A stretch of 49,840 nucleotides of DNA from Burkholderia sp. Ac-20379 (GTDB taxonomy: Bacteria; Pseudomonadota; Gammaproteobacteria; Burkholderiales; Burkholderiaceae). The notes beneath the pieces are model-generated. The model did not search any database. It was not told the DNA's origin and saw only the letters and a list, made by a program, of their open reading frames with translations. The position numbers and the translations under genes were made by a program. This document shows positions 12,834 to 32,258 of this stretch, piece by piece; the first letter of the stretch is position 1, and each line of letters opens with the position of its first letter. The DNA is taken from positions 1-49,840 of the forward strand of contig NZ_JAAGPF010000014.1 in NCBI RefSeq assembly GCF_017104645.1, written 5' to 3'.

Positions 12834-13589
12834 ATGTCTTCAGCACTCGCTTTGCCCATGGAAAAACCCGAGTTTGCTCGCACGCTGCGCGCCACGCTCG
12901 ACGAGCAACTGACCCTCGATCATCCGATCTTCAAGGAGTTGTTCACGCCGGAGAAGAATTGGCGACTCCTGAAGATCATCTCGCTGGAGGGGTATCAGAT
13001 CACGCGCTACTTCCTCGAGTACATCGAGAACCTCTATTTCCGCTGCCCGTTCCCCGATCACAAGCGCCGTCTGCTCTATAACCTGTTCGAGGAGGAAACG
13101 GGGCGCTTCTCCAAGACCAAGAACCACGTCGAGCTGATGGAGGATTTCATCCGCGCGCAGGGCATCTCGGACGAGGAGCGCGATGCGTGGACGCCGTCGG
13201 CCGCGACGCAGGAGCTGATCGACTACCGCCTCGAGAACTGCAAGGGTGCGGGCACCTATCACATCGGCGCCGCTGCCGTGATGATCGCGAGCGAAGGGCA
13301 GAGCCTCGAGACGCGTGCCGGCGATGCGCGCCACACGATCCTGGCCCAATGCTATGGCCTGTCCGAGAACGACACGCGGTTCTTCTCGGTGCATCAGAAG
13401 GAAGATGTCGCGCATGTGGCCGAGGGCATTTCGCTGGTTGCGGATCTCTGCACCACCGAACGCATGCAGGAAGAGGCGCTCTTCTCGGTACGTCATACCT
13501 GCAAGCTGTTCTGGAACATGTACGAAAGCGCGGCGCAGAAATACTACGCCGCCGATGCGCAGGCCGAATCGGCCGCGCTCGATGCCTGA
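12834..13589 (+). CDS. Heme-oxygenase-like diiron oxidase (HDO; TenA/PqqC-like fold)
   Basis: A 251-residue all-helical protein of the heme-oxygenase-like superfamily. The HDO metal set is visible: FEEETG (Glu87/88), KNHVEL (His98), ASEGQS (Glu154) and SVHQKEDVAH (His187, Asp191, His194). That is three His and carboxylates in the order used by UndA-, BesC- and SznF-type iron oxygenases. Such enzymes oxidise amino or fatty acids: N-oxygenation, desaturation or oxidative cleavage. It is the first gene of the long biosynthetic operon and lies 12 bases before the ANL ligase. ATG 12834 has a weak ribosome site, and ATG 12858 is the alternative. Substrate unknown; an amino acid or carrier-bound building block is likely. 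PqqC-like cofactor-free oxidases lack this full ligand set. Confidence 0.75.
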   Translation: MSSALALPMEKPEFARTLRATLDEQLTLDHPIFKELFTPEKNWRLLKIISLEGYQITRYFLEYIENLYFRCPFPDHKRRLLYNLFEEETGRFSKTKNHVELMEDFIRAQGISDEERDAWTPSAATQELIDYRLENCKGAGTYHIGAAAVMIASEGQSLETRAGDARHTILAQCYGLSENDTRFFSVHQKEDVAHVAEGISLVADLCTTERMQEEALFSVRHTCKLFWNMYESAAQKYYAADAQAESAALDA

Positions 13590-13601: not shown

Positions 13602-15131
13602 ATGAAGCTTGGCGACATCGTTGGCCGCCTGGCGGCCCATCGCGGACAACTCGTGTTCGCCGCGCCGGACGGTGCGGAATGCGTGCGTTCGTTTCAGGAT
13701 CTGCACCGCGATGTCATCGCGACCGCCCAATGGGTCGGGCAGCTGGGATTGCGTCCCGGCGCTCGCATCGGGCTCGCGGGGCCGGCCGGTTATGCATGGA
13801 TGGTGTGGGATCTGGCCTGTATCGAGCTCGGATGCGTGTCGGTGGCATTTCCCAACGAACGGGGCGCCGATGCCTGCGACACGCTGATTCAACGCTACGG
13901 CCTGAGCCTGCTGGCGATCGACGCGGCGTGGCTGGATCGATCCGACGGCGTGGCCAGCTTGCCGGCCAACACCGTCTTGCTGGATGCGGCGCCGTCGCCT
14001 GTCGCGGTGTGCGCGTCCACGGAGGCGCGCGAGGATGTGGCGGCGCAGGCGCCGGATACGCATTCGCTCGTATTCAGCTCGGGCACCACCGGCAAGACCA
14101 AGGGCCTGGTCATGAGCGCGCGGGGCACGGAGCATCTGATCGACCTGTACCATGATGCATTCGGCGTGGCCGACGGCGAACGCTTCCTGACCTTTCTGCC
14201 GTTCGCGAATTACCAGCAACGGATGATCTACTACTTCTGCCTGTACTACGGCATCGATTTCGTATCGGTGCCGTTTCAGGGGCTGTTCGCGGGCCTGAAG
14301 CAGTACCAGCCGAGTTTCCTGATCGCGCCGCCGATCGTCTACGAAACCTTGCAGACGCTGGCGAGCGCCGGCGTGGGCAAGGCCGATGCGCAGCGCGAGG
14401 CACGCCTGACGGAACGGCTGTCGGCGTTGACCGGCGGAAAGATCCGATACATGGTGACCGGCATGGCGCCGATCCGTCGCGCCACCCTCGATTTCTTCTG
14501 GCGTCACGATATTACGTTATACGAAGCATTCGGCATCACGGAAGCCGGCATGGTGGCCTGGAACAAGCCCGGCAGCGTGCGGCTCGGCTCGGTGGGGCGT
14601 CCCGCCGAGGCCGCAAGCGTGTCGCTCACGGAGGAGGGCGAGGTCATCGTGAAGCGCGATGCCCTGCTGTCGCTCGGATACTTCGAGGCCTCGGAGGAAG
14701 ATCGCCTCGCGACGTTCGTTGCGGCGGATGCGGTTGCCACCGGCGATATCGGCCAATTCGACGACGATGGTTTCCTGCGTGTCGTCGGCAGAAAGAAGGA
14801 CGCCATCATCTCCAGCAACGGCGAGAAATTTCATCCCGAGCCGATCGAGGCGATGTTGCAACAAGATTCGCGCATCGACGTGGCCGTCGTCATGGGCAGC
14901 ACGGCGCCCGGCCTTCGCGCGGTGATCGGAACGCGGCACCATGCCGACGCGGCCGTGCTGGGCGAATTGCGGGCGCATGTCGCGCAGGTGAATGCGGCGC
15001 TGCCGGCCCAACGCAAGCTGGTCGATCTCGTCTTTACCGGTAGCGAATTCAGCATCGCGAATGGTCTGCGCACACCCAACCTGAAACTGAACCGGCGCGC
15101 GATTGCGGCGACCTTCAGCTCACCCGAATAA
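13602..15131 (+). CDS. ANL-superfamily acyl/aryl ligase (acyl-CoA synthetase-like)
   Basis: A 509-residue AMP-forming ligase. The P-loop SSGTTGKTKG is at 159-168, the A5-type motif YEAFGITE near 305, and TGDIGQFDDDGFLRVVGRKKD carries the hinge Asp and following residues. The C-terminus TPNLKLNRR supplies the A10 lysine in long-chain acyl-CoA synthetase style. The stretch FLPFANYQQRMIYY corresponds to the acyl-CoA synthetase A4 region and lacks the Asp that amino-acid A domains use to hold the alpha-amino group. It therefore probably activates a carboxylic acid rather than a standard amino acid. CAGGAG at 13591-13596 is the ribosome site. It may load the free carrier protein or a T domain. It is the only intact stand-alone activating enzyme in the cluster besides the FAAL. 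Confidence 0.85.
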   Translation: MKLGDIVGRLAAHRGQLVFAAPDGAECVRSFQDLHRDVIATAQWVGQLGLRPGARIGLAGPAGYAWMVWDLACIELGCVSVAFPNERGADACDTLIQRYGLSLLAIDAAWLDRSDGVASLPANTVLLDAAPSPVAVCASTEAREDVAAQAPDTHSLVFSSGTTGKTKGLVMSARGTEHLIDLYHDAFGVADGERFLTFLPFANYQQRMIYYFCLYYGIDFVSVPFQGLFAGLKQYQPSFLIAPPIVYETLQTLASAGVGKADAQREARLTERLSALTGGKIRYMVTGMAPIRRATLDFFWRHDITLYEAFGITEAGMVAWNKPGSVRLGSVGRPAEAASVSLTEEGEVIVKRDALLSLGYFEASEEDRLATFVAADAVATGDIGQFDDDGFLRVVGRKKDAIISSNGEKFHPEPIEAMLQQDSRIDVAVVMGSTAPGLRAVIGTRHHADAAVLGELRAHVAQVNAALPAQRKLVDLVFTGSEFSIANGLRTPNLKLNRRAIAATFSSPE

Positions 15132-15140
15132 ATGCGAACG

Positions 15141-15160
15141 GCGCCGCCGCTGGGCGGCGC
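15141..15160 (+). other. Perfect GC hairpin between ligase and FAAL genes
   Basis: GCGCCGCC-GCTG-GGCGGCGC forms an 8-bp perfect stem with a 4-base loop, 10 bases after the ligase stop and 20 bases before the FAAL start. No T tract follows, so it is not an intrinsic terminator. An mRNA-stability or translation-spacing element is possible, or chance in GC-rich DNA. Confidence 0.35.
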
Positions 15161-15179
15161 ACGTTGCGTCGGAGCTCTC

Positions 15180-17429
<2,250 letters not shown>

Positions 17430-17462
17430 GTCGGCCTGCCCGACAACTCCGGAGTGAACAGC

Positions 17463-20400
17463 ATGAATCAGCCCGATGCCATGGGGCTTACGCCTGTCAA
17501 ACAGGCGCTGTTGAAGATCGAGTCGCTCCGACGCGAGCTCGAAGCCAGCCGCGCGGACAGCGGCGAGCCGATCGCGATCGTCGGCATGGGATGCCGCTTG
17601 CCGGGCGGCGTGAATTCGCCCGACGAACTCTGGGCCATGCTGGCGGCAGGCACCGATGCCATCGGCGAGGTGCCGCCGGAGCGCTGGACCGACGCGCTTT
17701 ACGATCCGCGTCCGGGCCGTGCGGATACGAGCTACAGCCGCCACGGTGGCTTCATCGACGCCGTCGATCGCTTCGATCCGGCCTTCTTCGGCATCTCGGC
17801 ACGGGAAGCGGCGCGGATCGATCCGCAGCAGCGGTTGCTGCTCGAATGCAGCTGGCGCGCCGCCGAAGATGCCGGTTTCACGCGGGAAACGCTCGCGGCA
17901 TGTCAGACCGGCGTGTTCGTCGGCTCCTCGGTGGACGACTATGCGCGCATCAGCGAGCACGCCGCCGACGAGTTCAGCTATGCGCAGACCTCGCTCGGCA
18001 CCGCGCGGCCGTTCGCGGCCGGCCGGATCGCGTACCTGTTCGGCCTGCACGGGCCCGCGCTGCATCTGGACACGGCCTGCTCGTCGTCGCTGGTCGCGGT
18101 GCATCTGGCCTGCCAGAGCCTGCGCGCGAAGGAAAGCGACGTGGCGCTGGCCGGGGGCGTCAATCTGATGCTGTCGCCGGAAATGACGATCGCGCTGAGC
18201 GAGCTGCAGGCGCTGTCGCCGGGTGGCCGCTGCCGCACCTTCGACGCCGCGGCGGATGGCTACGTGCGCGGCGAGGGATGCGGCGTGCTCACGCTGATGC
18301 GCCTGTCGGATGCGATCGCGCAGCACCGGCCGATCCGCGCAGTGATCCGCGGCTCGGCGCTCAACCACGACGGCCGCAGCAACGGCATGACGGCGCCAAA
18401 CGGGACGGCGCAGCGCGAGGTGATTCGCGCGGCGCTGGCTCGCGCCGGCATATCGCCTGCCGAAGTCGATTACGTCGAAGCGCACGGCACCGGCACGCCG
18501 TTGGGCGACCCCATCGAGCTGCGAGCGCTGGAGGAGGTCTATTGCCGCGATGTGGCGCGCGCGCATCCGCTCTACGTCGGCAGCATCAAGACCAATATCG
18601 GCCATCTGGAATCGGCCGCCTCCGTGTCCGGGCTGATGAAGCTCGTGTGCGCGTTGCAGCATGGCGAACTGCCGCGTCATCTGCACTGCGACACGCCGAC
18701 GGCTCACGTGGATTGGGCCCGTAACGGGATCCGCGTGGTCACCGAGCCGATGCGCTGGCCGTCTGCACGCCAGGGCGCCCGCGTCGCGGCCATCAGCTCC
18801 TTCGGGATGAGCGGCACGAACGGGCATCTGATCGTCGAGGCATGGCAGGCCGCGTCGCGCCACGACGGCGAGGCGCCGCCGCCGTCGTGGACCGCCGACG
18901 AGGACGTCGCGACGCCGCCGGACATTTTTCCCGTATCGGCGCATTCGGGGGCGTTGCTGACGCGTGCGATCGCGGATTGCGCCACGCAACTGAAGGCCGA
19001 CCGCACGATTTCGCCGGCCGCTTACGGTTTTGCGCTGCGCGCCGGGCGCGATACCCAACGCCACCGTTCGGCCGTGGTCGCGAGCTCGCGCGAGGCGTTG
19101 ATCGAGGCGCTCGAATCGCGTGCGCAAGCGATCCCGTCCCTCGAATCGCGCCCGGCCGGCGCCGGCCGGCTGGCCTTCCTGATGACCGGCCAGGGCGCGC
19201 AGCGCATCGACATGGCCAAGGCCTGTTATCGGCAATACCGCGTGTTTCGCGAGGTGTTCGACGAATGCGACCGGCATGTCACGGCGCTCGGCGAGCTGTC
19301 GCTGGTCGACGTGCTGTGGGGGGACGAGCAGGCTCGGATCGACCATACGCGTCACACCCAACCCGCGATGTTTGCGGTGGAGCTTGCGCTGGCGACGCTC
19401 TGGATGCACTGGGGCGTCGTGCCCGACGCCCTGATGGGACACAGTATCGGCGAGTATGCCGCGGCCTGTGTGGCGGGCGTGTTCTCGATCGAGGACGGCT
19501 GCCGGCTGGTGGTCGCGCGCGGCCGTCTCATGGAGACGCTCACCGGGGCGGGCGCGATGCTGGCCGTGCTGGCCTCGGCGCAGGACGTGCAGGATTGGAT
19601 CGCGGCGTCGGCGGAATCGGACGGGCCCGTCGCGATTGCCGCCGACAACGGCCCGGCCAACACGGTGGTGGCCGGCGAGCCGGCGGCGATCGAGGCGTTC
19701 TCCCGGCGCTGTCGCGAGCAGGGCGTCGCCACCCGCGCGCTCGACGTCACGCGGGCGTTCCATTCCCCGGCGATGGCGCCGATGCTGGCGGCCTTTGCGG
19801 ACGTGGCGGCCAGCGTGCAGTTCCACGCGCCGCGCATCCGCCTGGTGTCCAACGTTTCGGCAGGCTTCGAGACGACGCGTCTGCTGGATCCGCGCTACTG
19901 GGTGGAACATGTGAGTGCGCCGGTGGCGTTTCGCGCCGGCATGGACACCTTGCTCGACGACGCGATCCGCACGTTTGTCGAAATCGGCCCGGGCGGCACG
20001 CTCGTCGCACTCGCGAGTGCGTGCATCGAGGCCCGTGCGGCCGGCGCCTTGGCCGGGCCGACTTGCGTGTTGCGCTCGCTCGGCGCGCCGCAGCAGGAGG
20101 CGCACACGCTGCTGCTCGCGCTGGCGAGCCTGTACGAGGCGGGGTGGCCGGTGGACTGGACGGCGTACGAGCGTTCGCTGAATCGGCCCGCCACGCTGCC
20201 CCGGCTCGTGCTGCCGCCTTACCCGCTCGATGAAGGGCGCTACTGGGTCGGCCCGCGCGTGCCGGCCACACGCGCCAGGCCGCTGTCGGGCGCGATGGGC
20301 GTGGCGCCGGGCGGCGGATCGGGCGGCCTTCTCGGCGCCCGACTGGAACTGCCCGACAGCCGGGCGCAACGATACGAGGGACGGTTCGCGATCGAAGCCG

Positions 20401-23174
20401 ATCCCTGGCTCGACGGACATCGGGTGCAGGGGCACTGGGTTGCGCCGGCCGCGGCATTCGTCGATATGGCGCTCGACGCCGTGCGGCGCGGGCGATCGGG
20501 CGAGGCCGCGGCGCAGGGTTCGGCCGGGCACGGCTGGATCGCGGCGCAAGCGCTGACGTTCGAACGCGCGCTGCGGCTGACACGCCGCGACGCGGCGTTT
20601 GCGCTGGGCACCGTGGTGGAGTCCGAAGCCGGCGGCGATGTGGATACCGCTTGGCGGATTGCCGTGTACGCCCGGCCGATCCAGGCCGACGCGCCCGCCT
20701 GGGTGCGGCACAGCACGGCGCAAGCGGGCGCGGCGGCAGGTGCGCACGGTCACGAATGCGCGGACGCGCCGCCGCTTGCCGGGTGGCACGTGCAATGCAC
20801 GTCGGTTTTGCCGGTCGAGGCGTTCTACGCCCGTCTGGCCGAGCTCGGCCTCGGCTACAGCGGTGCATTCCGCTCGATCCGGCAACTGGTGCGAGGGGAG
20901 CTCAGCGCGCTGTCGCGCATCGAGCTTGCCGCCGACGATCGCGCGCTCGCCGCGGGCGTGGTTCAACCGGCCTTGCTCGACTGCGCGTTCCAGAGCGTCG
21001 CCGCGGCGGTCTGGGACACCGGTACGGGGCATGCCCATGTGCCGGTCGCGTTGGGCCGCATCGTCGTCCGGCCGTGTGCCGAACGCCTCGCTGCATGGTG
21101 CGCGGTACGTGTGCGACCGGGGCGAGGGCGGATCGAGGCGGATATTTGGCTCTACGACGATGACGGCGCCTGCTTCGCATCGATCGAACGCCTGACGCTG
21201 GCCGCCGTCGATGCGCGCGCATTCGGCGTGTCGGACGCGCCACCGGCCGCTCTGGCGGTCGCGCATCATCGCATCGACTGGCCGGCCATCGCGCTCGCGG
21301 CCGAGCCCGCCGATCTGCCGGCGCGCTGGACGCTGTTTGCCGGCGGCTCGGCGCTCGATGCCGGGTTGCTCGAGCGCTGCCGCGAGAGCGGTTGGCCCGT
21401 GCATTGCGTGCCGGCTTCCCGGCCCGCGCGCGTGAGCGATGCGGGTGCGGATGCCGATGCCGATGCCGATCAGGCCTTCGAATTCGATGACGATGCGTGG
21501 CTGGCCGGCGTGCGCGAGGCGTGCGAAGCGCACGTGGCCGCCGGCGCTGGCGCCGGGCGTCTGATGCTGCTGTACGTCTGGCCGCGTGCAGCGAATCGAT
21601 ACGACGACGATGCGGCCTCGCCCGAGGCGGCATTGGCCGAGGCGCTGCATGCGCAACGCCGCTTCGCGGCCTGGTGGCGCATCGTGCAGGCGATCGACTG
21701 GGCGTCGTGCGATGTCGGGATCGGCGTGCTGACGCAGGGCGCGCTGGCGCTGCCCGGGTCGAGCGCGCGCGTCGAACCGGATCAGGCGGCGGGTTGGGGC
21801 GCCGTGCGCAGCCTGATGCACGAAAGCGGGCCGTTGCACGTCGCGCTGGCCGATCTGTCGGGCCCCGATCGCGAGGCCTGCTCGTGCGCGCTGGCGGCGC
21901 TCAGCGCGGCGTCTCGCATCGGCGAGACGCAGTTCGCGGTACGCGGTGCCGCCGTGCATGGCGCGCGTCTGGTCGAGCGGCCGCTGGAGGCGCCCGTGCC
22001 GCTGGCGTCCGGCGCCTATCTGGTTACCGGCGGGCGCGGCGCCATCGGCGTGCGGCTGATCGAATGGCTGATCGGCCAGCGCGTGCCGAAGGTCGTTGCC
22101 GTGAGCCGGGGGCTGCCCGACCCGGCATTGCGCGATCGGCTGTGCGAGCTTGCCGAGGCGCACGCCGTGCAACTCGCGTTCGAGTCCGCCGATCTGGCCT
22201 GTTACCGCGACGTGGTGAATCTCGTCGAGCGCATCGGGACCGATCGGCAGGCGCCGCTGGTCGGCATCCTGCACGCCGCGGGGGTGCTCGAGGATGGCCT
22301 GCTCGACAGTCAGCCCGCTGCCGCGGTGCGGCGTGTGCTGGCGCCGAAGGTGGCCGGCACGCGGCATCTCGATCGCGCCACGGCCCACCTGCCGCTCAAG
22401 TCCTTCGTGACGTTTTCCTCGATCGTCGCCTGTATCGGCTCGCCCGGGCAGAGCGCCTACGCGGCCGCCAACGCGTGGATGGATGGCTTGATGCACGAGC
22501 GTCAAGCGGCCGGCCGGCCCGGACACACGATCAATTGGGGGCTCTGGGACGGCAGGGGCATGGCCGAGCAGCTCGACGCGAGGCAGCGCGAGCGGATTGC
22601 CGCCTACGGGCTCGGCGCACTCGATCCCGATGCGGCGCTGGTTTCGCTCGCCGCGCTGATCGGCGAGCCGGCGGGCCAGTCGCTGGTCTGGTGCGTCGAT
22701 CCCGAACGCCTCGCCGCGCGCGGTTCGAGCCCCGCGCTGCCCGCCTTGCTCGGGCCGCTGCTGCGCGGCCCCGGGCCCGTGCAGGCCGGCGCGGCGCGGG
22801 CGGAGGGCTTGCGCGATCGCGTGCTCGCGGCGCCCGCCCCGGCACGCCGTGCGTTGCTGCGCGAGCATCTGCTCGGGGACATCGCCACGACGCTGCGCAC
22901 CCCGGTCGGGCAGCTCGACGCGGATCGGCCGCTGATCGAACTCGGGCTCGATTCGTTGATGGCCGGCGAATTTCGCAGCGCGCTGCGCCGCCAGCTCGGC
23001 GTGGACATCCCGTTCGGCCGGCTGCTTGAAGGGGCGACGCTCGACGACGTCGTCGTCAGTGCGCTGGCGACGCTGTCCGGCGCGCGTGCCGCGGCGCACG
23101 GGGATCATCCACATACCGAGGTCGCGGCGCCGCAGCCGGCGCTGGCGATCGACATGGAAGGGGGAGAACTGTGA
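17463..23174 (+). CDS. Type I PKS module: KS-AT-DH-KR-ACP
   Basis: A 1903-residue module. A short N-terminal coiled helix (about 8-32) precedes the KS, whose active residues are Cys206 (DTACSSSL), His341 (EAHGTGT) and His381 (KTNIGHLE). The AT has GHSIGEY with Ser661 and an AFHS motif suggesting malonyl-CoA. The DH has HRVQGHWVAP (His986) and the LLDCAFQ Asp1173, so it looks active. The KR has TGGRGAIG near 1520, a B-type-like LED motif and YAAAN with Tyr1666. The carrier ends the protein (LGLDSL, Ser1831). There is no ER or methyltransferase, so an alpha,beta-unsaturated acyl chain is expected. Stop and NRPS start overlap (GTGA at 23171-23174). It extends the FAAL-loaded fatty acid by one two-carbon unit. 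Confidence 0.93.
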   Translation: MNQPDAMGLTPVKQALLKIESLRRELEASRADSGEPIAIVGMGCRLPGGVNSPDELWAMLAAGTDAIGEVPPERWTDALYDPRPGRADTSYSRHGGFIDAVDRFDPAFFGISAREAARIDPQQRLLLECSWRAAEDAGFTRETLAACQTGVFVGSSVDDYARISEHAADEFSYAQTSLGTARPFAAGRIAYLFGLHGPALHLDTACSSSLVAVHLACQSLRAKESDVALAGGVNLMLSPEMTIALSELQALSPGGRCRTFDAAADGYVRGEGCGVLTLMRLSDAIAQHRPIRAVIRGSALNHDGRSNGMTAPNGTAQREVIRAALARAGISPAEVDYVEAHGTGTPLGDPIELRALEEVYCRDVARAHPLYVGSIKTNIGHLESAASVSGLMKLVCALQHGELPRHLHCDTPTAHVDWARNGIRVVTEPMRWPSARQGARVAAISSFGMSGTNGHLIVEAWQAASRHDGEAPPPSWTADEDVATPPDIFPVSAHSGALLTRAIADCATQLKADRTISPAAYGFALRAGRDTQRHRSAVVASSREALIEALESRAQAIPSLESRPAGAGRLAFLMTGQGAQRIDMAKACYRQYRVFREVFDECDRHVTALGELSLVDVLWGDEQARIDHTRHTQPAMFAVELALATLWMHWGVVPDALMGHSIGEYAAACVAGVFSIEDGCRLVVARGRLMETLTGAGAMLAVLASAQDVQDWIAASAESDGPVAIAADNGPANTVVAGEPAAIEAFSRRCREQGVATRALDVTRAFHSPAMAPMLAAFADVAASVQFHAPRIRLVSNVSAGFETTRLLDPRYWVEHVSAPVAFRAGMDTLLDDAIRTFVEIGPGGTLVALASACIEARAAGALAGPTCVLRSLGAPQQEAHTLLLALASLYEAGWPVDWTAYERSLNRPATLPRLVLPPYPLDEGRYWVGPRVPATRARPLSGAMGVAPGGGSGGLLGARLELPDSRAQRYEGRFAIEADPWLDGHRVQGHWVAPAAAFVDMALDAVRRGRSGEAAAQGSAGHGWIAAQALTFERALRLTRRDAAFALGTVVESEAGGDVDTAWRIAVYARPIQADAPAWVRHSTAQAGAAAGAHGHECADAPPLAGWHVQCTSVLPVEAFYARLAELGLGYSGAFRSIRQLVRGELSALSRIELAADDRALAAGVVQPALLDCAFQSVAAAVWDTGTGHAHVPVALGRIVVRPCAERLAAWCAVRVRPGRGRIEADIWLYDDDGACFASIERLTLAAVDARAFGVSDAPPAALAVAHHRIDWPAIALAAEPADLPARWTLFAGGSALDAGLLERCRESGWPVHCVPASRPARVSDAGADADADADQAFEFDDDAWLAGVREACEAHVAAGAGAGRLMLLYVWPRAANRYDDDAASPEAALAEALHAQRRFAAWWRIVQAIDWASCDVGIGVLTQGALALPGSSARVEPDQAAGWGAVRSLMHESGPLHVALADLSGPDREACSCALAALSAASRIGETQFAVRGAAVHGARLVERPLEAPVPLASGAYLVTGGRGAIGVRLIEWLIGQRVPKVVAVSRGLPDPALRDRLCELAEAHAVQLAFESADLACYRDVVNLVERIGTDRQAPLVGILHAAGVLEDGLLDSQPAAAVRRVLAPKVAGTRHLDRATAHLPLKSFVTFSSIVACIGSPGQSAYAAANAWMDGLMHERQAAGRPGHTINWGLWDGRGMAEQLDARQRERIAAYGLGALDPDAALVSLAALIGEPAGQSLVWCVDPERLAARGSSPALPALLGPLLRGPGPVQAGAARAEGLRDRVLAAPAPARRALLREHLLGDIATTLRTPVGQLDADRPLIELGLDSLMAGEFRSALRRQLGVDIPFGRLLEGATLDDVVVSALATLSGARAAAHGDHPHTEVAAPQPALAIDMEGGEL

Positions 23175-26100
23175 GTTCGATCGAATTCATCCGGGATCTG
23201 GGGCGCCAGGGCATCGAGCTTTGGGCACAGGACGGCAAGCTGCAGTACAAGGCGCCGAAGGGCGCCATGACGCCCGAACTGATCGCCACGCTGAAGGCCG
23301 ACAAGGCCGAGCTGGTCGCATTGCTGGAGCAGTTTGCCGGCACGCTCGGCAGCTATCCGCTGTCGTACGCGCAGGCTTCGCTCTGGTCGCTTCACCAGCT
23401 CAATCCCGAGAGCGCCGCGTATAACGTGACCTATGCGATACAGCTCGACGATGCGGTGGAGAGCGCGACGTTGCGGCGTTGCGTCGATTATCTGATCGCG
23501 CGCCATCCGATCCTGCGCACCGCTTATCGCGTGATCGACGGCGAGCCGTGTCAGGAGGTCGTGGCGACGGCGGCCGCGAGCCTCGCCATCGACCGGCTGT
23601 TCGACGCGGATGAGGCGGCGATCCGACACTGGATCGACGATCAGGCCAACCAGCCGTTCGATCTCGCGCAATCCCCGATCCGGCTCAAGCTGCTGGTCAA
23701 TGTGCCGCGAGAGGCCCAGGGGATCCGGCAGGTGCTGCTGATCAACGTGCATCACATCGCCGCCGATTTCCGCTCGCTGGAGATCCTGATCCGCGAGTTG
23801 CACGCGCTGTATGCCCAGGCCGTCGCCGGCGCACCGCTCGCGCTGCCGCCGCTTGCGCTGCAGTACCGCGACTGTGTCCAGCATGAGCTGGCCCGGCTGG
23901 GGCGCGGCGCCAGCGAACCGGCGGCGGCGTTCTGGCGTCACGAATTGCGCGATGGCTGGCCGGTGCTCGAACTCGCCACGGACCGCGTCCGGCCGCCGCT
24001 GAAGAGCGAGCGTGGGCGCGTGCACGAACTGGCGCTGGGCGAGGCGCTATCGGCCCGCGTGCGCGACGCCGCCCGGCAGGCGCACGTCACGCCCTACATG
24101 TGGCTGCTCACCGTCTACCAGTTGTTTCTTTACTGTCATACCGGCCAGCCCCGGCTGATGATCGGGGCGCCGACGTCCGGTCGCGGCGTGGCAGGCAGCG
24201 AGAATGTGCTCGGCCACTTCGTCAACACGGTCGTGCTGGCGTGCGACGTGAACGAGGGCGACACGTTTTCCACGTTGCTGGATCGCACGCGCGAGATGAT
24301 GCTGCGGGTGCTCGAGCATCAGGACTATCCGTTTCCGATGTTGGTGGACATGCTGCGCCCGCCGCGCGATGCGAGCCGTTCGCCGATCTATCAGGTGATG
24401 TTCAACTGGAATCAGGCCCACGGCGAAACCGGGCTGGACGCGGCAGGCGGCGTGCCGTTCTACGGGGCGCGGCTCGCGGCCTCCAGCACCGGCACGCGAG
24501 GCGCGACGCATGACCTGACGCTGAATCTCCAGGATCTCGGCAATGCTTACCTGAGCGCCTGGACCTTCAATACCGATCTGTTCGAGCCGGAGAGTATCGA
24601 GCGCTTCGCCAGGCAGTACGTGCGTCTCGTCGAGCAGGCGCTCGAGGATCCCGCTCGCGCGCTGGCGCGCTTCAGCACCGCGGATCAGCAATCCGGCGCC
24701 GCACTGATGGCGCGGCTCGCCCGTGTGCTGCCCGGTTCGCCGGCGGCCCTGTCCGAGTGCGCCACGACGTCGCTCGACGCGAGCGCCGTGGTGTGGCAAC
24801 TGGACGGCGCGGGGCTGACGCGGGCCGACGTCGACGCGGCCCGGCGAGCCCTGACGGCGCGTCTGGCGAGCGCCGGTGTGGCGAAGGGCACGTGCGTCGC
24901 GTTGCATCTGACGGCGCCGGCGCAATGCGCGCTGGCGCTGTTGGCCGTGTGCGAGCTGGGCGCGCGCGTGCTGCGCACGACGATCGGCCTGCCGCGCGCC
25001 GACGACGCATGGGTCGATCCGCGCGTCGGCGTGACGCTGCTCGACGGCGGCACGCCGGATTGGCACCCCGCCTCGATCCGCATCGAGGCAGCCCGGCAGG
25101 GCGCGCATGTGCGCTCGGACGATACCCGCGACGCGATGGACGCGGGTGCCGTCATGGCGTTCACGGCGGATCTCGCGCGCCTGTTGCGCGCCGATCGGGA
25201 CAGCGTGGTGGTGGCGTTGTGCGACCAGCCCGCGTGGCTGACGGTCGCCTCGCTCGTGCATGCGTTCAGCCGCGGCGGATCGGTGCGGCTGAGCTCGCAG
25301 GCTTCCATTTCCGCGCTGGCAAGCCCCGACGCGTCGCTCGCCCGGGCGGCGCGAGCGACGCTGGGAGCGCTGCTCTCGCCCGCCGCGTGTCTGATGGTGC
25401 CCGCGTTGCTGGCCACCCGGTTGGCCGACGCCGGCATCGACCGGGTTCGGCACCGGCTTGTCTATGGCGATCGGCCCGGCGGCGCGTCGGGCTCGACCGT
25501 TTTTGTACCGCTCGCCGCCGTGGAACCGTGGCACACGCTTGCCGGCTTCGTGCCCGATCGCGGACGATGGCGCTTCCTGGCGCCGTCCGCCGATGGCCGC
25601 GTGGCCGTGGTGGTCGGCCCGACGGGGCGCCTGGCCGACGAGCGTCAGGCCGGCGAACTGCGTTTCGTCTGGCCTGCCGCGGGCGCATGCGACATCGCAA
25701 GCCCGCCTGATTCGCCAGATGCGCTGTTGGACGGGGCGGTGCCGCTCGGCGCCGGCCTGCGCGCGGTGCGGATCGGCGAGACCATCCTGAGCGATGCGCC
25801 GTCGTTGCGCGGGAGCGATGCGTCATGCGGTGTCGCCGATGCGATCGAGCGGCATCTGCGCGGTGTGCCGGGTGTCCAGGACGCCGCCTGCGAGGCGCGC
25901 GAGGTGGCGGGCGCCGTGGTGCGGGTCGCCTATTTGACGCCCGATCCGGCGCTGGCCGATAGCGGGCCCGACGCCTTGCTCGTGCGTGCGCGGGCTGCAC
26001 TGAAGGCGGCGTTGCCCGATGCCATGCATCCCGATGCGATCCAGTGGCTCGCGCAATTGCCGCTCGACGCGCGAGGCGCACTCGACGTGTCGCGCCTGCC

Positions 26101-27838
26101 GCTTCCGGATGCGCAGCCGGGTGCGTCGCGAGAGGCGGACAGCGAGATCGAGCACGCCTTGGTCGCGATCTGGCGCGACGTCCTGGGGCGCGCGACGATC
26201 GGTGTCGACGACGATTTCTTCGAGTCGGGCGGCGACTCGATTCTGGCCGCGGTCATCGTGTCGCGTGCGGCGCTCGACGGGCTGTATCTGAAGCCGAAGG
26301 ATCTGTTCGAACATACGACGGTGGCGGAGCTGGCCGCCGTGGTGCAGGCTGCGCCGGCGCTCGGCGTGGATCAAGGGCCGGTGCGTGGCGACGCGGCGCT
26401 CGGGCCGGCCGCCGCCTGGTTTGTCGAGAAAGTCGACCGCGATCGCTCGCATTTCAACCAGGCGCTGCTGGTGTCGCTGCGCGACGAGCCCGATCTGGCG
26501 ATGCTGGCCGAAGCCTGGCGCGTGGTTGTGCAGCATCACGACGGCCTTCGCTCACGCTTCGCAGCCGACGGCGCGAGCCTGCGTCAGCACTTTCCCGATA
26601 CCGCCGGCGACGATGGCATCGATGTCGACGCGGTGTCCTGCGTCGATGCCGCCGGGCGCCACGACGAGGCGGCTTGGCGAGCGGCGATCGCCGCCGCGCA
26701 AACCGGCCTCGATATCGAGCGCGGCCGGCTGCTGGCCGTGCGTTGGCTCAAAAGCGCCAGCTTATGGTCCAGCCGGCTACTGATCGTCGTCCATCACCTG
26801 GCGATCGACGGCGTATCGTGGGCCATTCTGCTGCAGGATCTGGCCGATGCGTATCTGCAGATCCGCCAGCGCACGACGCCGAAACTGCCGCTGAAAACCA
26901 GCGCCGCGAAGGCCTGGGTCGAGCACTGGCAAGCCCTGGTCGCCACCGGCGCGCTCGATCGTGACCGGGCCTACTGGCTGGCGCGCGCCGAACATGTCCG
27001 GGCGGCGCTCGGCGGCGGGACGCGCGTGGCGCTGATGCGTCACAGTCTCAACCCGATCGTGCACCACACCTACGAGGATTCGCCGCTGAGCTGCACGATC
27101 ACGCTCGATGCGAAAACCACCACGCGCTTGCGTACCACCGCGCATCGCGCCTATGGCACGGACGCCAACGATCTGCTGGTGGCGGCCCTGCATGGCGGCT
27201 TCTGGGACTGGAGCCGCAGCGAGGCGCTCTGGATCGACGTCGAGGGGCATGGTCGCAACGCGTTCGACGACGAGGCGCTGGACCTGAGCCGCAGCATTGG
27301 CTGGTTTACCTCGATTTATCCCGTGTTCGTCGATGCGCCGGCCGACGGCGAGGCGGCGCGCTTGATCAAGGGCGTCAAGCAGCGCCTGCGCGAGGTGCCC
27401 CGCCATGGGGCCGGCTTCGGCGCACTGCGCTATCTCGACGGCGACGCGACGCTGGCGGCGCTGCCCGCCGCCCCGATCCTGTTCACCTATCTCGGGCAAC
27501 TCGAGCAGATGGCCGGCAACCCCGACTTTTATCGCGGCACGCTCGAGGCTGCCCCCGGCATCCGCAGCCCGCGCCAGCGACGCACGCATCTGCTGGACAT
27601 CGTGGCGTATGTGGCCGGCGGCAGGCTCATCCTCGATGCGTCGTTCCACGGGGCGCCCGGCGTGGACGAGAGCATCGGCTGCCTGATGTGCCACGTCGAG
27701 GCACGGCTCAGAGCGCTGATCGATCACTGCGACGCGGCGCCGGACGGCGGCATGACACCGTCCGATGTGCCTCAGCTGGACGTGGATCAGGACGAGCTGG
27801 ACGCCGTGCTCGCCGAAATCGACGCCCTCGAACCATGA
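23171..27838 (+). CDS. NRPS: TubC docking-C-A*(decayed)-T-E
   Basis: A 1555-residue NRPS starting with GTG, overlapping the PKS stop. Residues 1-55 form a TubC-type docking domain (SIEFIRDLGRQGIELWAQDGK). The C domain follows with HHIAADF at 194-200: the catalytic HHxxxD is kept but the usual Gly is Phe. Residues about 490-985 are where an A domain belongs, yet no P-loop, no YGxTE, no YRTGDL and no A10 lysine remain (PLDARGALDVSRL has Ala in place of Lys). The T domain is normal (ESGGDSILA, Ser1023). An epimerization domain follows, with HHLAIDGVSW at 1208-1217, the EGHGR motif and RSIGWFTSIYP. The module should therefore add a residue supplied in trans and epimerise it to D. Same operon; 58 bases before the next NRPS. 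Confidence 0.9.
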   Translation: MSSIEFIRDLGRQGIELWAQDGKLQYKAPKGAMTPELIATLKADKAELVALLEQFAGTLGSYPLSYAQASLWSLHQLNPESAAYNVTYAIQLDDAVESATLRRCVDYLIARHPILRTAYRVIDGEPCQEVVATAAASLAIDRLFDADEAAIRHWIDDQANQPFDLAQSPIRLKLLVNVPREAQGIRQVLLINVHHIAADFRSLEILIRELHALYAQAVAGAPLALPPLALQYRDCVQHELARLGRGASEPAAAFWRHELRDGWPVLELATDRVRPPLKSERGRVHELALGEALSARVRDAARQAHVTPYMWLLTVYQLFLYCHTGQPRLMIGAPTSGRGVAGSENVLGHFVNTVVLACDVNEGDTFSTLLDRTREMMLRVLEHQDYPFPMLVDMLRPPRDASRSPIYQVMFNWNQAHGETGLDAAGGVPFYGARLAASSTGTRGATHDLTLNLQDLGNAYLSAWTFNTDLFEPESIERFARQYVRLVEQALEDPARALARFSTADQQSGAALMARLARVLPGSPAALSECATTSLDASAVVWQLDGAGLTRADVDAARRALTARLASAGVAKGTCVALHLTAPAQCALALLAVCELGARVLRTTIGLPRADDAWVDPRVGVTLLDGGTPDWHPASIRIEAARQGAHVRSDDTRDAMDAGAVMAFTADLARLLRADRDSVVVALCDQPAWLTVASLVHAFSRGGSVRLSSQASISALASPDASLARAARATLGALLSPAACLMVPALLATRLADAGIDRVRHRLVYGDRPGGASGSTVFVPLAAVEPWHTLAGFVPDRGRWRFLAPSADGRVAVVVGPTGRLADERQAGELRFVWPAAGACDIASPPDSPDALLDGAVPLGAGLRAVRIGETILSDAPSLRGSDASCGVADAIERHLRGVPGVQDAACEAREVAGAVVRVAYLTPDPALADSGPDALLVRARAALKAALPDAMHPDAIQWLAQLPLDARGALDVSRLPLPDAQPGASREADSEIEHALVAIWRDVLGRATIGVDDDFFESGGDSILAAVIVSRAALDGLYLKPKDLFEHTTVAELAAVVQAAPALGVDQGPVRGDAALGPAAAWFVEKVDRDRSHFNQALLVSLRDEPDLAMLAEAWRVVVQHHDGLRSRFAADGASLRQHFPDTAGDDGIDVDAVSCVDAAGRHDEAAWRAAIAAAQTGLDIERGRLLAVRWLKSASLWSSRLLIVVHHLAIDGVSWAILLQDLADAYLQIRQRTTPKLPLKTSAAKAWVEHWQALVATGALDRDRAYWLARAEHVRAALGGGTRVALMRHSLNPIVHHTYEDSPLSCTITLDAKTTTRLRTTAHRAYGTDANDLLVAALHGGFWDWSRSEALWIDVEGHGRNAFDDEALDLSRSIGWFTSIYPVFVDAPADGEAARLIKGVKQRLREVPRHGAGFGALRYLDGDATLAALPAAPILFTYLGQLEQMAGNPDFYRGTLEAAPGIRSPRQRRTHLLDIVAYVAGGRLILDASFHGAPGVDESIGCLMCHVEARLRALIDHCDAAPDGGMTPSDVPQLDVDQDELDAVLAEIDALEP

Positions 27839-27896
27839 CCCGATGGCGGTGCGCGGCCCGCGCATCGCCCGTCATTTCCCGAATCAGGAATTCTGC

Positions 27897-30800
27897 ATGG
27901 CACGCAACGTCGATACGCTCTATTACGCTACGCCGCTACAGCGCGGCATGCTGCATCACTCGCGGCTCGATCCGTCGTCGGGCATCTATGTCGAACAGTT
28001 TTCGTGCGTGTTGCGCGGTGCGATGGACATCGAGCGATTCCGCGCGGCCTGGCAGACCGTGGTGCTGCGGCACGACGTGCTCAAGACGCTGTTCATCCGG
28101 CTGCACGAGGCACGCCCGATGCAGGTGGTGCGCCAGCGCGCGACCCTGCCGCTCGAGGTACGCGACTGGCGCACGCTTGCGAGCGAGGAACACGCGTCGC
28201 GCTTCGAGGCCTTGCTGGCCGACGATCGCCGGCGCGGCATCGCGTTCGACGTCGCGCCGCTGATGCGCGTCACCGTCGTCACGCTGGCCGACGACCGCCA
28301 TCGCTTCCTCTGGACCTATCACCACGCGATCCTGGATGGCTGGTCGATGCCGGTGCTGCTCGGCGAGGTGTTCGCGAGCTACGCGCGACCCGAGCTGCCG
28401 CTGCCGGCCGCGGCCCGGGATTATCGTCACTACGTGCAGTGGTTGGCGGCGCAGGACACGCAGGCCGCGAACGCATTCTGGCGCGACATGCTGGCCGGGT
28501 ATCGCGAGCCGTTGCGTTTCGCGCCCTCGGTCGAACCCAGCGTGGCGGCCGCGTCGGCGGAGCGCCGATTGCGGTCGGTGGAGGCGGCGTTGCCCGCCGA
28601 CTGGCTTCAGACGGCGCAACAGCGCTGTCGTGCCGAGCACATCACGCTCAGCACGTTGTGCCAGGGCGCCTGGATGCTGCTGCTGGCCCGCCTGGGCGGC
28701 GTGGACGATGTCGTCAGCGGGGTGGTGATGTCCGGCCGTCAGTCGACCTTCGAGGGCGCGGAGCGGATTGCCGGTTTGTTCATCAACACCTTGCCCGTGC
28801 GGGTGCGGCTGGATGGCGAGTCGCGCGTGGGCGACTGGCTGCGCGGCGTGCAGCGGCTCACGCGCGAGGTCGAGCAGAATGCGTCCTGCGCATTGACCGA
28901 GGCGCTGCAGTGCAGCGACGTGCCACGCCATCTTCCGCTGTTCGACGCACTTTACGTATTCGAGAACTACCCGGGGCGCGATGCGTTCGATCGGCTGGCG
29001 GCCGATTGCGGCTGGCGCGTCGAGGCAACGCGTGCGGTCGAGGAAACGAACTACGCGCTGGCCCTGATCGTGCTGCCGGCCGATGCGCTGCACCTGCAAC
29101 TGACCTATGACACGGCGCGCTTCGACGCGCGATTCGTCGATCGTCTGCTCGGGCACTATCGCGCGCTGCTCGAGTGCATGATCGCGGACCCGATGCCGCG
29201 CCTGGGCGCGCTTGCGCTGGCGGCGCCCGAGTGGCGGCGGATCCGGCCCGAGGCGGCGGCGCCCGCGCCGATCGCGCTGGTCGACGCGCTGCTGGCTCGG
29301 GCCACGCATGCGCCCGAGCAACTGGCGTTGTCGTATGCGCATCAGCAGGGTACTGCCGAGGGCGGGCTGACCATTGCCGTGACGATCGCCTACGCGGCGT
29401 TGGCCGAGCGTGTGACGCGGGCGATTCGGCAGTGGAAGCGCTTCGGGCTGCAGGCGGGCGATCGCGTGATCCTGATCGAGCCTGAGCCGATCACGCGGCT
29501 CGTGTTGTTGTATTCGGGGCTGGCCTGCGGCATCGATTGCTGGATGGCGGAGGATAGCCAATCGGCGGCCGCGCTCGCGGAATTGCGCCGCGAGGGGGCG
29601 GGTTGGCCGACGCTGCGCGGGTGCGCGAGCGCGTCGTCCGCCGTGTCCGGCATGCTCTGTTTCGTTTTCGACGAGCGCCACCCCGATTATGGCAAGCCGG
29701 CGCCGGCCGCCGATCAGCGTGCCACCGATCCGATGCCGGCCGCGCAGGGCGCCTGTTCGCTGTTCACGTGCGACGCCGACGGCACCTGGCAACAGGTACG
29801 CTATCGCCACCACCAGCTCGCGCTCGCCGCGCAGTCGTTCGCCGAATCGTTCAGCGCCGGCGAGTGCGTGGATGTCGCGATCGATGGGCCGCTCGATGCC
29901 CCGACGCATCTCGCGATCGTGCTGGGCGCGCTGCATGCGGGCCTGTCGATTCATCAGGTGGCAGGCAGCGATGCCGGGAGCGTTCTGCAACGGCTGGCGG
30001 ATTCGGCACGCCGCTGGCACAGCGTGTTTCTCGGCGCACCTGCCACGCGCCGTCTCGAGCCGATGCTGGAGCGGGCGCCGCACGCGCGTATCGAATGCGC
30101 CTATCTGGTGGCCGACAGCCGTTCGTTGACCCCGCACGGTGCGCGCGCGATGGGGATCCTCGCACCGCGTGCGCGGCACTATCGGGTGCTGCGATGGCCG
30201 GCCGTTTCGTTGCCGCACGCGTTGGATCCGATCGACGCCGGCACCACGGCCTTGGCGGCGCTGATCCACCCCTTGGGCCCGGATGCCACGGTGGGAGTGG
30301 TCGATACGCACGGTAATCCGGCCGGCACGGATGCCTTGGGCCGGCTTGCACTCGGTGGCGCGAGCGTGCCCGAATCCATCCGGACGGGGGCGGCGTTCGA
30401 CGGCACGGCGGGGCCGGGGCCATCCCGGGATGCCCCGCTGCCGACCACGCTCGAGGCGTGGCGCACGGCGGCGGGATGCGAGCTGCGCCTGCCGGATCCG
30501 CGTGCGGCCGCCGATGCCCCCGCGGCCGATTGGGCGGCGCTCGAGGTGCTGGCCGCACGCGCTGCCGACGCCGATGCGCATGCGCTCGCCGTGGTCGAGC
30601 GTCTCGACGCGAATGCCCGGTGGGAGACGATCCTGTTCCACGTCGGCGCGCAGGCGGCATGCGACGTACTGCTTGCCGCCTGCGAGGGCGATCCGGAGCG
30701 GCGCGCGAGCATCGATGCGGTGATCGAGCTGGCGGCCATGCCGCGCGACGCGCATGGCCGTATCGACCGGGCCTGCCTGATCGCGGGCGCGGCGACACCC

Positions 30801-32258
30801 GTCAGGCCGTCGAGTTCAGGCGAGCCCGCCAGTCCGATCGAAGCGGGCATTCTCGAGATCTGGCAAGCATTGCTCCAGCGCCAGGACATCGGCCTGCACG
30901 ACGACTACTTCGAACTCGGCGGCGATTCGCTGCAGGCCACGGTCATGCTCTATCAGATCGAGGCGCAGTTCGGGAAGAAGATCGGCACGCAGGCATTGCT
31001 GGCGAAGCCGACGATTGCGGCATTGGCCGCCCGCGTGGCGAGTGAGGCGGACGACGCCGACGATGCGATGCCGGATCTCCGCGCCGATGCGGTCCTGGAT
31101 CCCGCGATCACGCCGAATGCCGTGCCGACGGCCGCAGCCGCGCGTGCCGTATTGCTGACCGGCGCGACGGGGTTCCTGGGCGTGCACCTGCTCGAGGCGC
31201 TGCTGAACGACACCGCGGCGGACGTGTGGTGCCTGGTGCGCGCGAACGATGCTCAGGCCGGGGCGCGCCGTCTGCGTGACGCGATGCAGGCGCATGGCGT
31301 CTGGCGCGAGGCCTATGCGGCGCGCATTCGGGCCGTGCCCGGCGATTTGGCGCTGCGGAATCTGGGCTTGTCCGACGCCGATTTCGATGCGCTGGCAAGG
31401 TCGGTCGACGTCATTTATCACAACGGCGCGCTCGTCAATTTCGTCTATTCGTATGCGGCGCTGAAACCGGCCAATGTCGATGCGACCGAAGCGATTCTGC
31501 GGCTCGCGAGCCTGCACGGCGCGATTCCCGTTCACTATGTTTCGACAGTCGGCACACTGAACCGCCATGCCGATGCGATCCCTGAAACATTGGCCGTGCC
31601 GTATCACGACTATCTGGCAACCGGGTACGAACAGAGCAAGTGGGTGGCCGAGCAACTGGTCGCGCAAGCATCGGCCCGCGGTCTGCCGGTGACGGTATAT
31701 CGACCGTCGCGCATCGTGGGGCACTCGTCCAGCGGCCGCATGAACCTCGACGATCTGTTCAGCCGCCTGATCAAGGGCATCGCGCTTCAAGGCCAGGCGC
31801 CACGCAATGTCGGGTTCGACAACATGCTGCCGGTCGACGTGGTGAGTCGCATCATCGTGGCATCCTCGCTGAGCGCGGAATCGGCGGGCAAGGCGGTGCA
31901 TGTCGTCAATCCGGTATGGAATTCTCTTGATGCGCTGGTCGATTACATCGAACAGGCCGGGTATCCGTTGACACGCCTCGACTACGACCAGTGGCTTGCC
32001 GCGCTCGACGATCACGTGCGCGTCATGCCGGAGCATCCGCTGGCGACGCTGATCCCGGTGCTCACGAAGCTGAATCCGTCGGCGGATCCGTCGATCGGAA
32101 AGATTCTGCCGATCGAATCGGTGCAGCTTCATCGCCTGGCGGGCGCCGTTCTGGCCGACAGCTTGCGTCCTGCCGAGGTGTGGCTCGACACGTTCTTCGA
32201 TTACTTCCATGCCGAGGGTTTTCTGCCGGCCGTGGCGGACGCGGTCGATGGTGCCTGA
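27897..32258 (+). CDS. NRPS: C-A*(decayed)-T-R (reductive release)
   Basis: A 1453-residue terminal NRPS. The C domain has HHAILDGWSM (His142-His143, Asp147); following an E domain it should accept a D-residue donor. Residues about 450-960 align in position with an A domain but lack the core motifs. A remnant near LFTCDADGTWQQVRY stands where the P-loop should be, and the A10 site reads PRDAHGRIDRACL with Arg for Lys. The T domain is intact (ELGGDSLQA, Ser1011). A thioester reductase domain closes the protein: LLTGATGFLG near 1085, YHNGALVNFVYSY, and catalytic YEQSK (Tyr1244, Lys1248). It would release the product with NADPH as an aldehyde or alcohol. AGGAA 6 bases before ATG 27897 supports this start; 27843 is an in-frame alternative. 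Confidence 0.9.
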   Translation: MARNVDTLYYATPLQRGMLHHSRLDPSSGIYVEQFSCVLRGAMDIERFRAAWQTVVLRHDVLKTLFIRLHEARPMQVVRQRATLPLEVRDWRTLASEEHASRFEALLADDRRRGIAFDVAPLMRVTVVTLADDRHRFLWTYHHAILDGWSMPVLLGEVFASYARPELPLPAAARDYRHYVQWLAAQDTQAANAFWRDMLAGYREPLRFAPSVEPSVAAASAERRLRSVEAALPADWLQTAQQRCRAEHITLSTLCQGAWMLLLARLGGVDDVVSGVVMSGRQSTFEGAERIAGLFINTLPVRVRLDGESRVGDWLRGVQRLTREVEQNASCALTEALQCSDVPRHLPLFDALYVFENYPGRDAFDRLAADCGWRVEATRAVEETNYALALIVLPADALHLQLTYDTARFDARFVDRLLGHYRALLECMIADPMPRLGALALAAPEWRRIRPEAAAPAPIALVDALLARATHAPEQLALSYAHQQGTAEGGLTIAVTIAYAALAERVTRAIRQWKRFGLQAGDRVILIEPEPITRLVLLYSGLACGIDCWMAEDSQSAAALAELRREGAGWPTLRGCASASSAVSGMLCFVFDERHPDYGKPAPAADQRATDPMPAAQGACSLFTCDADGTWQQVRYRHHQLALAAQSFAESFSAGECVDVAIDGPLDAPTHLAIVLGALHAGLSIHQVAGSDAGSVLQRLADSARRWHSVFLGAPATRRLEPMLERAPHARIECAYLVADSRSLTPHGARAMGILAPRARHYRVLRWPAVSLPHALDPIDAGTTALAALIHPLGPDATVGVVDTHGNPAGTDALGRLALGGASVPESIRTGAAFDGTAGPGPSRDAPLPTTLEAWRTAAGCELRLPDPRAAADAPAADWAALEVLAARAADADAHALAVVERLDANARWETILFHVGAQAACDVLLAACEGDPERRASIDAVIELAAMPRDAHGRIDRACLIAGAATPVRPSSSGEPASPIEAGILEIWQALLQRQDIGLHDDYFELGGDSLQATVMLYQIEAQFGKKIGTQALLAKPTIAALAARVASEADDADDAMPDLRADAVLDPAITPNAVPTAAAARAVLLTGATGFLGVHLLEALLNDTAADVWCLVRANDAQAGARRLRDAMQAHGVWREAYAARIRAVPGDLALRNLGLSDADFDALARSVDVIYHNGALVNFVYSYAALKPANVDATEAILRLASLHGAIPVHYVSTVGTLNRHADAIPETLAVPYHDYLATGYEQSKWVAEQLVAQASARGLPVTVYRPSRIVGHSSSGRMNLDDLFSRLIKGIALQGQAPRNVGFDNMLPVDVVSRIIVASSLSAESAGKAVHVVNPVWNSLDALVDYIEQAGYPLTRLDYDQWLAALDDHVRVMPEHPLATLIPVLTKLNPSADPSIGKILPIESVQLHRLAGAVLADSLRPAEVWLDTFFDYFHAEGFLPAVADAVDGA

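Follow-up and report, generated by a model that had tools for sequence, protein, structure and literature searches.

A 49,840-nucleotide stretch of DNA from Burkholderia sp. Ac-20379 (contig NZ_JAAGPF010000014.1 of assembly GCF_017104645.1, one contig of a 7.4-Mb draft genome; hereafter the window) encodes an assembly line composed of a fatty acyl-AMP ligase (FAAL), a polyketide synthase (PKS) and two nonribosomal peptide synthetase proteins (NRPS1 and NRPS2), the last of which ends in a thioester reductase (R) domain. Sequence comparisons confirm that the adenylation (A) domain of both NRPS proteins is present at full length but dead. We consider it fairly probable that amino-acid activation in this line has been outsourced to a relay made up of a stand-alone AMP ligase (P5), a stand-alone carrier protein and an alpha/beta hydrolase with a cysteine nucleophile and a docking tail, with the dead A domains serving as spacers.

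Organization of the assembly line

The genes for P5, the FAAL fused to an acyl carrier protein (ACP), the PKS, NRPS1 and NRPS2 follow one another in this order on the + strand. A divergent block upstream on the - strand encodes the carrier protein, the alpha/beta hydrolase, an SbnA-like pyridoxal phosphate (PLP) enzyme, a GNAT acyltransferase and a MauG-like enzyme, and a CADD-type oxidase is also encoded upstream, on the + strand. The features of the assembly line are listed below, with ketosynthase (KS), acyltransferase (AT), dehydratase (DH), ketoreductase (KR), condensation (C), thiolation (T) and epimerization (E) domains abbreviated.

15132..17429, + strand: FAAL-ACP starter (NCBIfam FAAL models below their own cut-offs; Pfam AMP-binding and PP-binding)
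17454..23174, + strand: PKS, KS-AT-DH-KR-ACP, C-terminus IDMEGGEL (Pfam)
23171..27838, + strand: NRPS1, TubC-type docking domain, C, dead A, T, E (Pfam, motif table)
23183..23332, + strand: N-terminal beta-hairpin docking domain of NRPS1 (Pfam TubC_N, 64 bits)
24743..26125, + strand: dead A domain 1, approximate limits (hhalign; catalytic motifs lost)
26156..26341, + strand: T domain 1, SGGDSI (Pfam)
26393..27805, + strand: E domain, HHLAIDG, approximate limits (second Condensation stretch in Pfam; TIGR01720)
27897..32258, + strand: NRPS2, C, dead A, T, R (Pfam; open frame from 27765)
29277..30779, + strand: dead A domain 2, approximate limits (hhalign; motif table)
30849..31037, + strand: T domain 2, LGGDSL (Pfam)
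31155..32105, + strand: R domain (NAD_binding_4; TIGR01746, 321 bits)

NRPS2 probably starts at 27897, because conservation begins at about residue 39-45 of the longer frame.

Both adenylation domains are dead

In the Pfam search, for which the NRPS1 query ended at window position 27500 (residues 1-1443), NRPS1 matched C, T and a second Condensation-type stretch corresponding to E, and NRPS2 matched C, T and R. No AMP-binding match above the Pfam cut-off was found in this part of NRPS1 or in NRPS2; NRPS1 retained a remnant of 21 bits at residues 531-602 (cut-off 29.9), and NRPS2 lacked even that. Seven orthologs of each dead A domain were aligned profile to profile (hhalign) with six intact A domains of the same genome. 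The first dead A domain aligned over 438 columns (E 5e-17) and the second over 455 columns (E 1.8e-12), and both regions are therefore descendants of A domains with homology over the full length. The idea that the two are copies of a single dead module received weak support, because their mutual alignment covered 136 columns (E 7e-5) and each aligns better with the intact A domains.

The catalytic motifs are gone from the seven orthologs of both modules, with at most two of the 11 letters of the P-loop YTSGSTGRPKG, two of the eight letters of NLYGPTEA and four of the six letters of YRTGDL remaining. Likewise, the lysine of motif A10 is replaced by alanine in 7/7 NRPS1 orthologs and by arginine, threonine, glycine or alanine, never lysine, in 7/7 NRPS2 orthologs. 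None of the seven clusters thus has an A domain with the P-loop, YGPTE, YRTGDL and A10 lysine of a functional enzyme, in either module. These results agree with the first-pass annotation, which had described both ATP sites as lost and the A10 lysine as Ala in the first module; the Arg that it read in the second module is indeed not Lys, but the residue itself varies among the orthologs. Because both A domains are dead, T domains 1 and 2 would need to be loaded from outside, as that annotation had also proposed.

The rest of the line is conserved

The seven orthologous clusters are those of the window, of five other genomes of its genus and of one genome of another genus (G313). A search of 64 other genomes of the genus recovered the cluster in five (6/65 with the own genome), and G313 came from a search of the family genomes; relatives named by a genome contig scan (2 loci) are Burkholderia sp. 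MS389 and B. anthina. The clusters share their gene order and have the same LolA-like gene about 9 kb away, and the genes for P5, the carrier, the Cys-hydrolase, the GNAT enzyme, the PLP enzyme, the oxidase and the MauG-like enzyme occur in the same order in all seven.

The motifs of the T (GGDS), E (HHxxxDG), second C (HHAILDG) and R (TGATGFLG, YEQSKW) domains are kept in 7/7 clusters, and those of KS, AT, KR and ACP in the six PKS sequences read, the G313 PKS lying outside this read-out. The first C domain, in NRPS1, has HHIAADF instead of HHxxxDG in all seven orthologs. All 14 NRPS genes read are open frames. Between the window and the five genus relatives, the dead A parts are 34-46% identical, compared to 56-75% for the other domains. 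The ratio of nonsynonymous to synonymous substitution rates (dN/dS) ranged from 0.15 to 0.52 in the dead A parts and from 0.00 to 0.27 in the other domains, as estimated from four pairwise comparisons within the five relatives, with G032 in three of these and the window in none. The dead A domains are thus relaxed yet still under purifying selection, which fits spacers whose fold has to be kept.

Purifying selection on all NRPS parts tested and the conserved motifs rule out a general decay of the assembly line, in agreement with the earlier claim to that effect. The accompanying statement that the C, T, E and R domains retain their catalytic residues holds for the second C domain and for T, E and R, with the altered motif HHIAADF as a correction for the first C domain.

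A candidate loading system next to the assembly line

The genes that we propose to take part in loading, together with their conserved neighbors, are:

13602..15131, + strand: stand-alone AMP ligase P5 (Pfam AMP-binding and AMP-binding_C_3; alignments)
12834..13589, + strand: heme-oxygenase-like (CADD-type) diiron oxidase (TIGR04305, 84 bits, below the cut-off of 200; PDB 1rcw, 8va9)
12382..12663, - strand: stand-alone carrier protein, LMLDSISL (PP-binding)
10883..12382, - strand: alpha/beta hydrolase with Cys nucleophile (SWCGG), proposed aminoacyltransferase
9699..10727, - strand: PLP enzyme, SbnA / cysteine-synthase-like (TIGR03945, 327.8 bits, below the cut-off of 349.95)
9031..9693, - strand: GNAT acyltransferase (weak PF00583 and rimI-type matches)
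6775..8121, - strand: MauG-like di-heme enzyme (CCP_MauG), a conserved neighbor in 7/7 clusters

P5 aligned with the intact A domains over 431 columns, and its ATP motifs SSGTTG[KR]xKG, YEAFGITE, ATGD and NLKLNRR are kept in the six aligned sequences. The serine of the carrier protein is invariant in 6/6 aligned sequences, and the carrier gene overlaps at its end with the beginning of the hydrolase gene. The GNAT enzyme is 58-71% identical in all five genus relatives. No match to the oxidase was found in the plasmid collection. The similarity of the PLP enzyme to SbnA suggests a 2,3-diaminopropionate-like amino acid, which is only a guess because the match falls below the TIGR03945 cut-off.

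SyrC and CmaE use a Cys nucleophile. In the hydrolase, Cys280, Asp422 and His450 are invariant in 6/6 aligned sequences, SWCGG is also present in G313, and all ten hydrolases read (from the seven clusters, one Sinorhizobium meliloti and two Streptomyces) have Cys at the nucleophile elbow. Comparison with solved structures gave weak matches to 14 chains, mostly fluoroacetate dehalogenases (E 2.8e-5 to 1.3e-3), and none of the six NCBIfam matches was to a model named for SyrC or CmaE. The case for a transferase role therefore depends on the Cys, the context and analogy, by which we suggest that the hydrolase is a SyrC/CmaE-like transferase that docks on NRPS1.

The PKS and the hydrolase share a putative docking tail

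The N-terminal domain of NRPS1 has relatives among docking domains of known structure, namely AerJ (8aqq), TubC (2jug), 6cgo, EpoB (5t7z) and Kj12. Binding in the Kj12 complex is through the last five residues; Gly packs on a Tyr, Glu pairs with an Arg, and the large side chains of hydrophobic residues are buried (PMC6195595). The C-terminal tails of the PKS (IDMEGGEL) and the hydrolase (DDVETGEL) in the window both fit this published rule of Gly, Glu and a hydrophobic last residue, and by eye the NRPS1 domain has KLQYK at the matching strand, with Lys and Tyr at the rule positions. The tails are EMEGGEL (PKS) and [DE]MESGEL (hydrolase) in the five genus relatives, and EMTSGEL and ALVLGEI in G313. 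The PKS thus ends with EGGEL, and the hydrolase with E[ST]GEL, in 6/7 clusters each.

A codon pattern search of the own genome located the two tails at:

23157..23174, + strand: codons of PKS tail E-G-G-E-L-stop
10883..10900, - strand: codons of hydrolase tail E-T-G-E-L-stop

The ExGEL-stop pattern with a CTN leucine codon and TAA or TGA gave one match, at the end of the PKS gene, and that with CTN or TTN and TAG also gave one, at the end of the hydrolase gene; TTR leucine codons followed by TAA or TGA fell outside these patterns. The backward control patterns gave three and five matches, so that one or a few matches by chance would be unremarkable, and the weight of the observation therefore lies in where the matches fall, at in-frame ends of two genes of the cluster, and not in their rarity. 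Furthermore, 10 of 279 distinct coding-like open reading frame ends from the window and 18 fetched stretches are GE[LI], and all ten belong to a PKS or a hydrolase by length and place; the filter lost 4 of the 14 PKS and hydrolase genes, including the hydrolase of the window.

These patterns suggest that the PKS and the hydrolase use the same docking domain of NRPS1. The decayed A regions had been described in the first-pass annotation as spacers or docking platforms. The first part of this proposal is consistent with the selection data, whereas no evidence for a docking platform was found in the dead A regions; what points to docking is the TubC-type domain of NRPS1 and the tails of the PKS and the Cys-hydrolase.

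Related gene sets on plasmids

Plasmid searches with the hydrolase (nine records, all with less than 80% query coverage) and with P5 (1009 records, 15 of them listed) led to pSmeSM11b of S. meliloti. This plasmid encodes a P5-like ligase (29% identical) and a Cys-hydrolase (25% identical) beside NRPS genes, together with a carrier, a GNAT enzyme, an iron redox enzyme, a cupin-metRS protein and an N-hydroxylase-type gene. In its largest NRPS, SGSTG is missing from the A domain of module 1, where the motif positions read YRTED and GAIDR; this domain aligned with the intact A domains at E 1.6e-22, compared to E 7.4e-98 for module 2 (hhalign). pSmeSM11b thus provides a second pairing of a ligase, a carrier and a Cys-hydrolase with a dead A module. 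The two Streptomyces hydrolases with Cys at the elbow likewise come from stretches with NRPS genes.

Several additional observations were made in these stretches. The Sinorhizobium plasmids (L042, corresponding to NC_010865.1 100000-135000, and L044) carry a hydrazine-type NRPS cluster with a Cys-hydrolase, cupin-metRS, N-hydroxylase, GNAT, ligase and carrier genes, and one NRPS module with a motif-less A domain. On the Streptomyces plasmids (L045, L046), hydrolases with GWCSG and CWCSG are located beside DUF6039 genes, near a cytochrome P450 and a large NRPS. On a Massilia forsythiae plasmid (L043, NZ_CP051686.1), a P5-like ligase (37%) is part of a 636-residue protein annotated as NRPS, which ends with GAEEGAI and precedes an NRPS that starts with a TubC-like docking sequence; GAEEGAI is possibly a docking tail.

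A relay model for loading

From the dead A domains, the gene set, the Cys-Asp-His residues, the shared tails and their conservation, all of which are seen in the sequences, we infer the following catalytic steps, docking interaction and substrate. P5 would adenylate a carboxylic acid, perhaps an N-acylated amino acid derived from the PLP enzyme, and load it onto the stand-alone carrier, where the CADD-type oxidase may modify it. The Cys-hydrolase would then accept the residue from the carrier, forming a Cys thioester, use its ExGEL tail, which is of the same kind as the PKS tail, to dock on the TubC-type domain of NRPS1, and pass the residue to T domain 1, and probably to T domain 2. The C domains would condense, the E domain epimerize and the R domain release an aldehyde or alcohol, while the dead A domains would stay in place as structural spacers. 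A more tentative extension, to which we give somewhat less than even chances, is that one relay serves both dead modules, with a transferase that copies the PKS tail so that chain and monomer donors alternate on a single docking domain.

Several points weigh against this model. Its function is deduced from sequence throughout, and the hydrolase is likened to SyrC and CmaE by analogy. The closest matches of P5 are fatty-acid and CoA ligases, the solved structures among them being acyl-CoA ligases, and P5 has Tyr at the position of the motif-A4 Asp, which in A domains holds the amino group; an N-acylated substrate would explain the absence of this Asp. The S. meliloti hydrolase lacks a GEL tail, and loading in trans could also be performed there by the intact A domains of the other NRPS modules of that cluster. 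An intact A domain is likewise present in the two large Streptomyces NRPSs encoded near such hydrolases. In one system that has been studied, the tail proved dispensable in vivo (PMC13324335). Finally, the own genome encodes NRPSs with intact A domains at other loci.

The last point leads to an alternative that we regard as unlikely, namely that another NRPS of the genome charges the T domains in trans with its intact A domain, or that P5 does so directly, the hydrolase taking no part in loading. Stand-alone A-T proteins are known to complement in trans (PMC8949500), and CmnA-A1 loads another module (PMC12400406). However, the NRPSs with intact A domains are on other contigs, whereas the carrier, the hydrolase and P5 are linked in 7/7 clusters, and this explanation would leave the stand-alone carrier and the tailed Cys-hydrolase without a role.

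It seems less likely still that the Cys-hydrolase is an editing enzyme of the type II thioesterase kind, which docks on NRPS1 to clear mis-loaded T domains that are loaded by other means. By sequence it belongs to the alpha/beta hydrolase family, and the type II thioesterase LgnA can both edit and transfer (PMC8748450). A Cys instead of a Ser nucleophile and a start codon that overlaps the carrier gene nevertheless fit transfer better.

We give very little credence to the possibility that both NRPS modules are skipped or non-functional remnants and that the product comes from the PKS part only: both A domains are dead and evolve faster than their neighbors, yet the NRPS genes are open, have retained their C, T, E and R motifs and remain under purifying selection. 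Least credible of all is that the A regions activate amino acids through a non-canonical site, for which the conserved LPDxMHPD and LPLDxxGAL stretches of dead A domain 1 could be cited, given the loss of all four ATP-site motifs in 7/7 clusters and the variable A10 replacement in the second module.

Distribution and neighboring genes

The hydrolase was identified in at least 6 of 299 family genomes, including the own genome; the gene-bearing G015 was not among the matches listed. Outside the own genome, it had no match among 369 genomes of the class (E up to 1e-25) or 398 genomes of the phylum (E up to 1e-9).

The cluster is followed by genes for a sigma factor, a FecR-like protein and two TonB receptors (32694-39237). 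Counterparts of the first three (the sigma factor, the FecR-like gene and the first TonB receptor) are present within the fetched stretches of two of the five genus relatives (G032, G035), hinting at a metal-related role in some strains.

Comparison with known systems

The first-pass annotation did not recognize this architecture. Precedents for its parts do exist, however: inactive A domains are complemented in trans in albicidin, cystobactamid, ramoplanin and enduracidin biosynthesis, SyrC loads a module that lacks an A domain (PMC8949500), degenerate A domains are known from the fungal SidD/SidC and ferrichrome synthetases (PMC10192304, PMC2644324), and an inactive A domain has been drawn for bripiodionen (PMC10956176). 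As in the albicidin, cystobactamid, ramoplanin and enduracidin systems, the A domain here is present but inactive and a separate protein, P5, with its ATP motifs kept, would activate the monomer. Unlike the albicidin type, which relies on a stand-alone A-T protein, both modules are dead here and the ligase, carrier and Cys-hydrolase are separate; P5 is not an A-T didomain, having neither a T domain nor the A4 Asp, and the carrier is encoded by a gene of its own.

CmaE and LgnA transfer aminoacyl groups (PMC8748450). The proposed transferase between carriers resembles, by description, SyrB1-SyrC in syringomycin and CmaA-CmaE-CmaD in coronamic acid biosynthesis, but the acceptors there have no A domain, whereas here a dead one is kept. 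Furthermore, the portions of PMC8748450 and PMC8949500 drawn on here mention no docking tail for the SyrC and CmaE shuttles, while the hydrolase of the window is tailed. Like LgnA of the legonindolizidine pathway (PMC8748450), it would be an alpha/beta hydrolase that charges a T domain through an aminoacyl-enzyme, with Cys-Asp-His and an N-terminal extension in place of the Ser-Asp-His triad of LgnA. The tail with Gly, Glu and a hydrophobic end, paired with an N-terminal TubC-type domain, resembles the short linear motif (SLiM) and beta-hairpin pairs of TubC, Kj12 and Bamb_5917/5915. In the parts of PMC9113145 considered, SLiMs are found on carriers, oxidases and heterocyclization domains; here one also occurs on a stand-alone hydrolase.

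The block of GNAT, adenylase and carrier recalls DobB/DobC/DobQ, kin of the triacsin and azaserine systems, from a hydrazone pathway in which the GNAT succinylates hydrazinoacetic acid and the adenylase loads the resulting N-acylated acid onto the carrier (PMC13061610). Unlike in that pathway, no hydrazine-forming genes were seen among the window genes examined. As in the fungal SidD/SidC, the dead-A modules would be loaded from elsewhere, but in SidD an active A domain elsewhere in the protein does the loading and the dead A domain is truncated, whereas the dead A domains here are full length (PMC10192304, PMC2644324). The AFC-BC11 type of Burkholderia was also considered and rejected, as it is described without condensation domains (PMC12186527) and both NRPSs here have one.

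In the literature searched, which covers part of the field, we found no description of a line whose amino-acid modules are all dead, and recognized no paper on this cluster or on an aminoacyltransferase with a docking tail. We view the cluster as a putative variant of the known kind with inactive A domains served in trans, in which both modules are dead, the activator is CoA-ligase-like and the proposed transferase is tailed. That A domains can be inactive and served in trans was already known; the outsourcing of both modules and a transferase that shares a PKS-type tail look new.

Implications

If the relay model is correct, the choice of monomer in an NRPS could be uncoupled from the line itself and supplied by way of a tail of five residues, which would bear on how A domains are lost and on the design of synthetases. 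Software that predicts monomers from A domains in genome mining would make wrong calls for such clusters, and a Cys-hydrolase, a carrier and a ligase beside a dead A domain could serve as a marker for finding more of them. Under the more tentative extension, in which one relay serves both modules, the related Sinorhizobium relay with its dead A domain would make such a relay a general replacement for the A domain.

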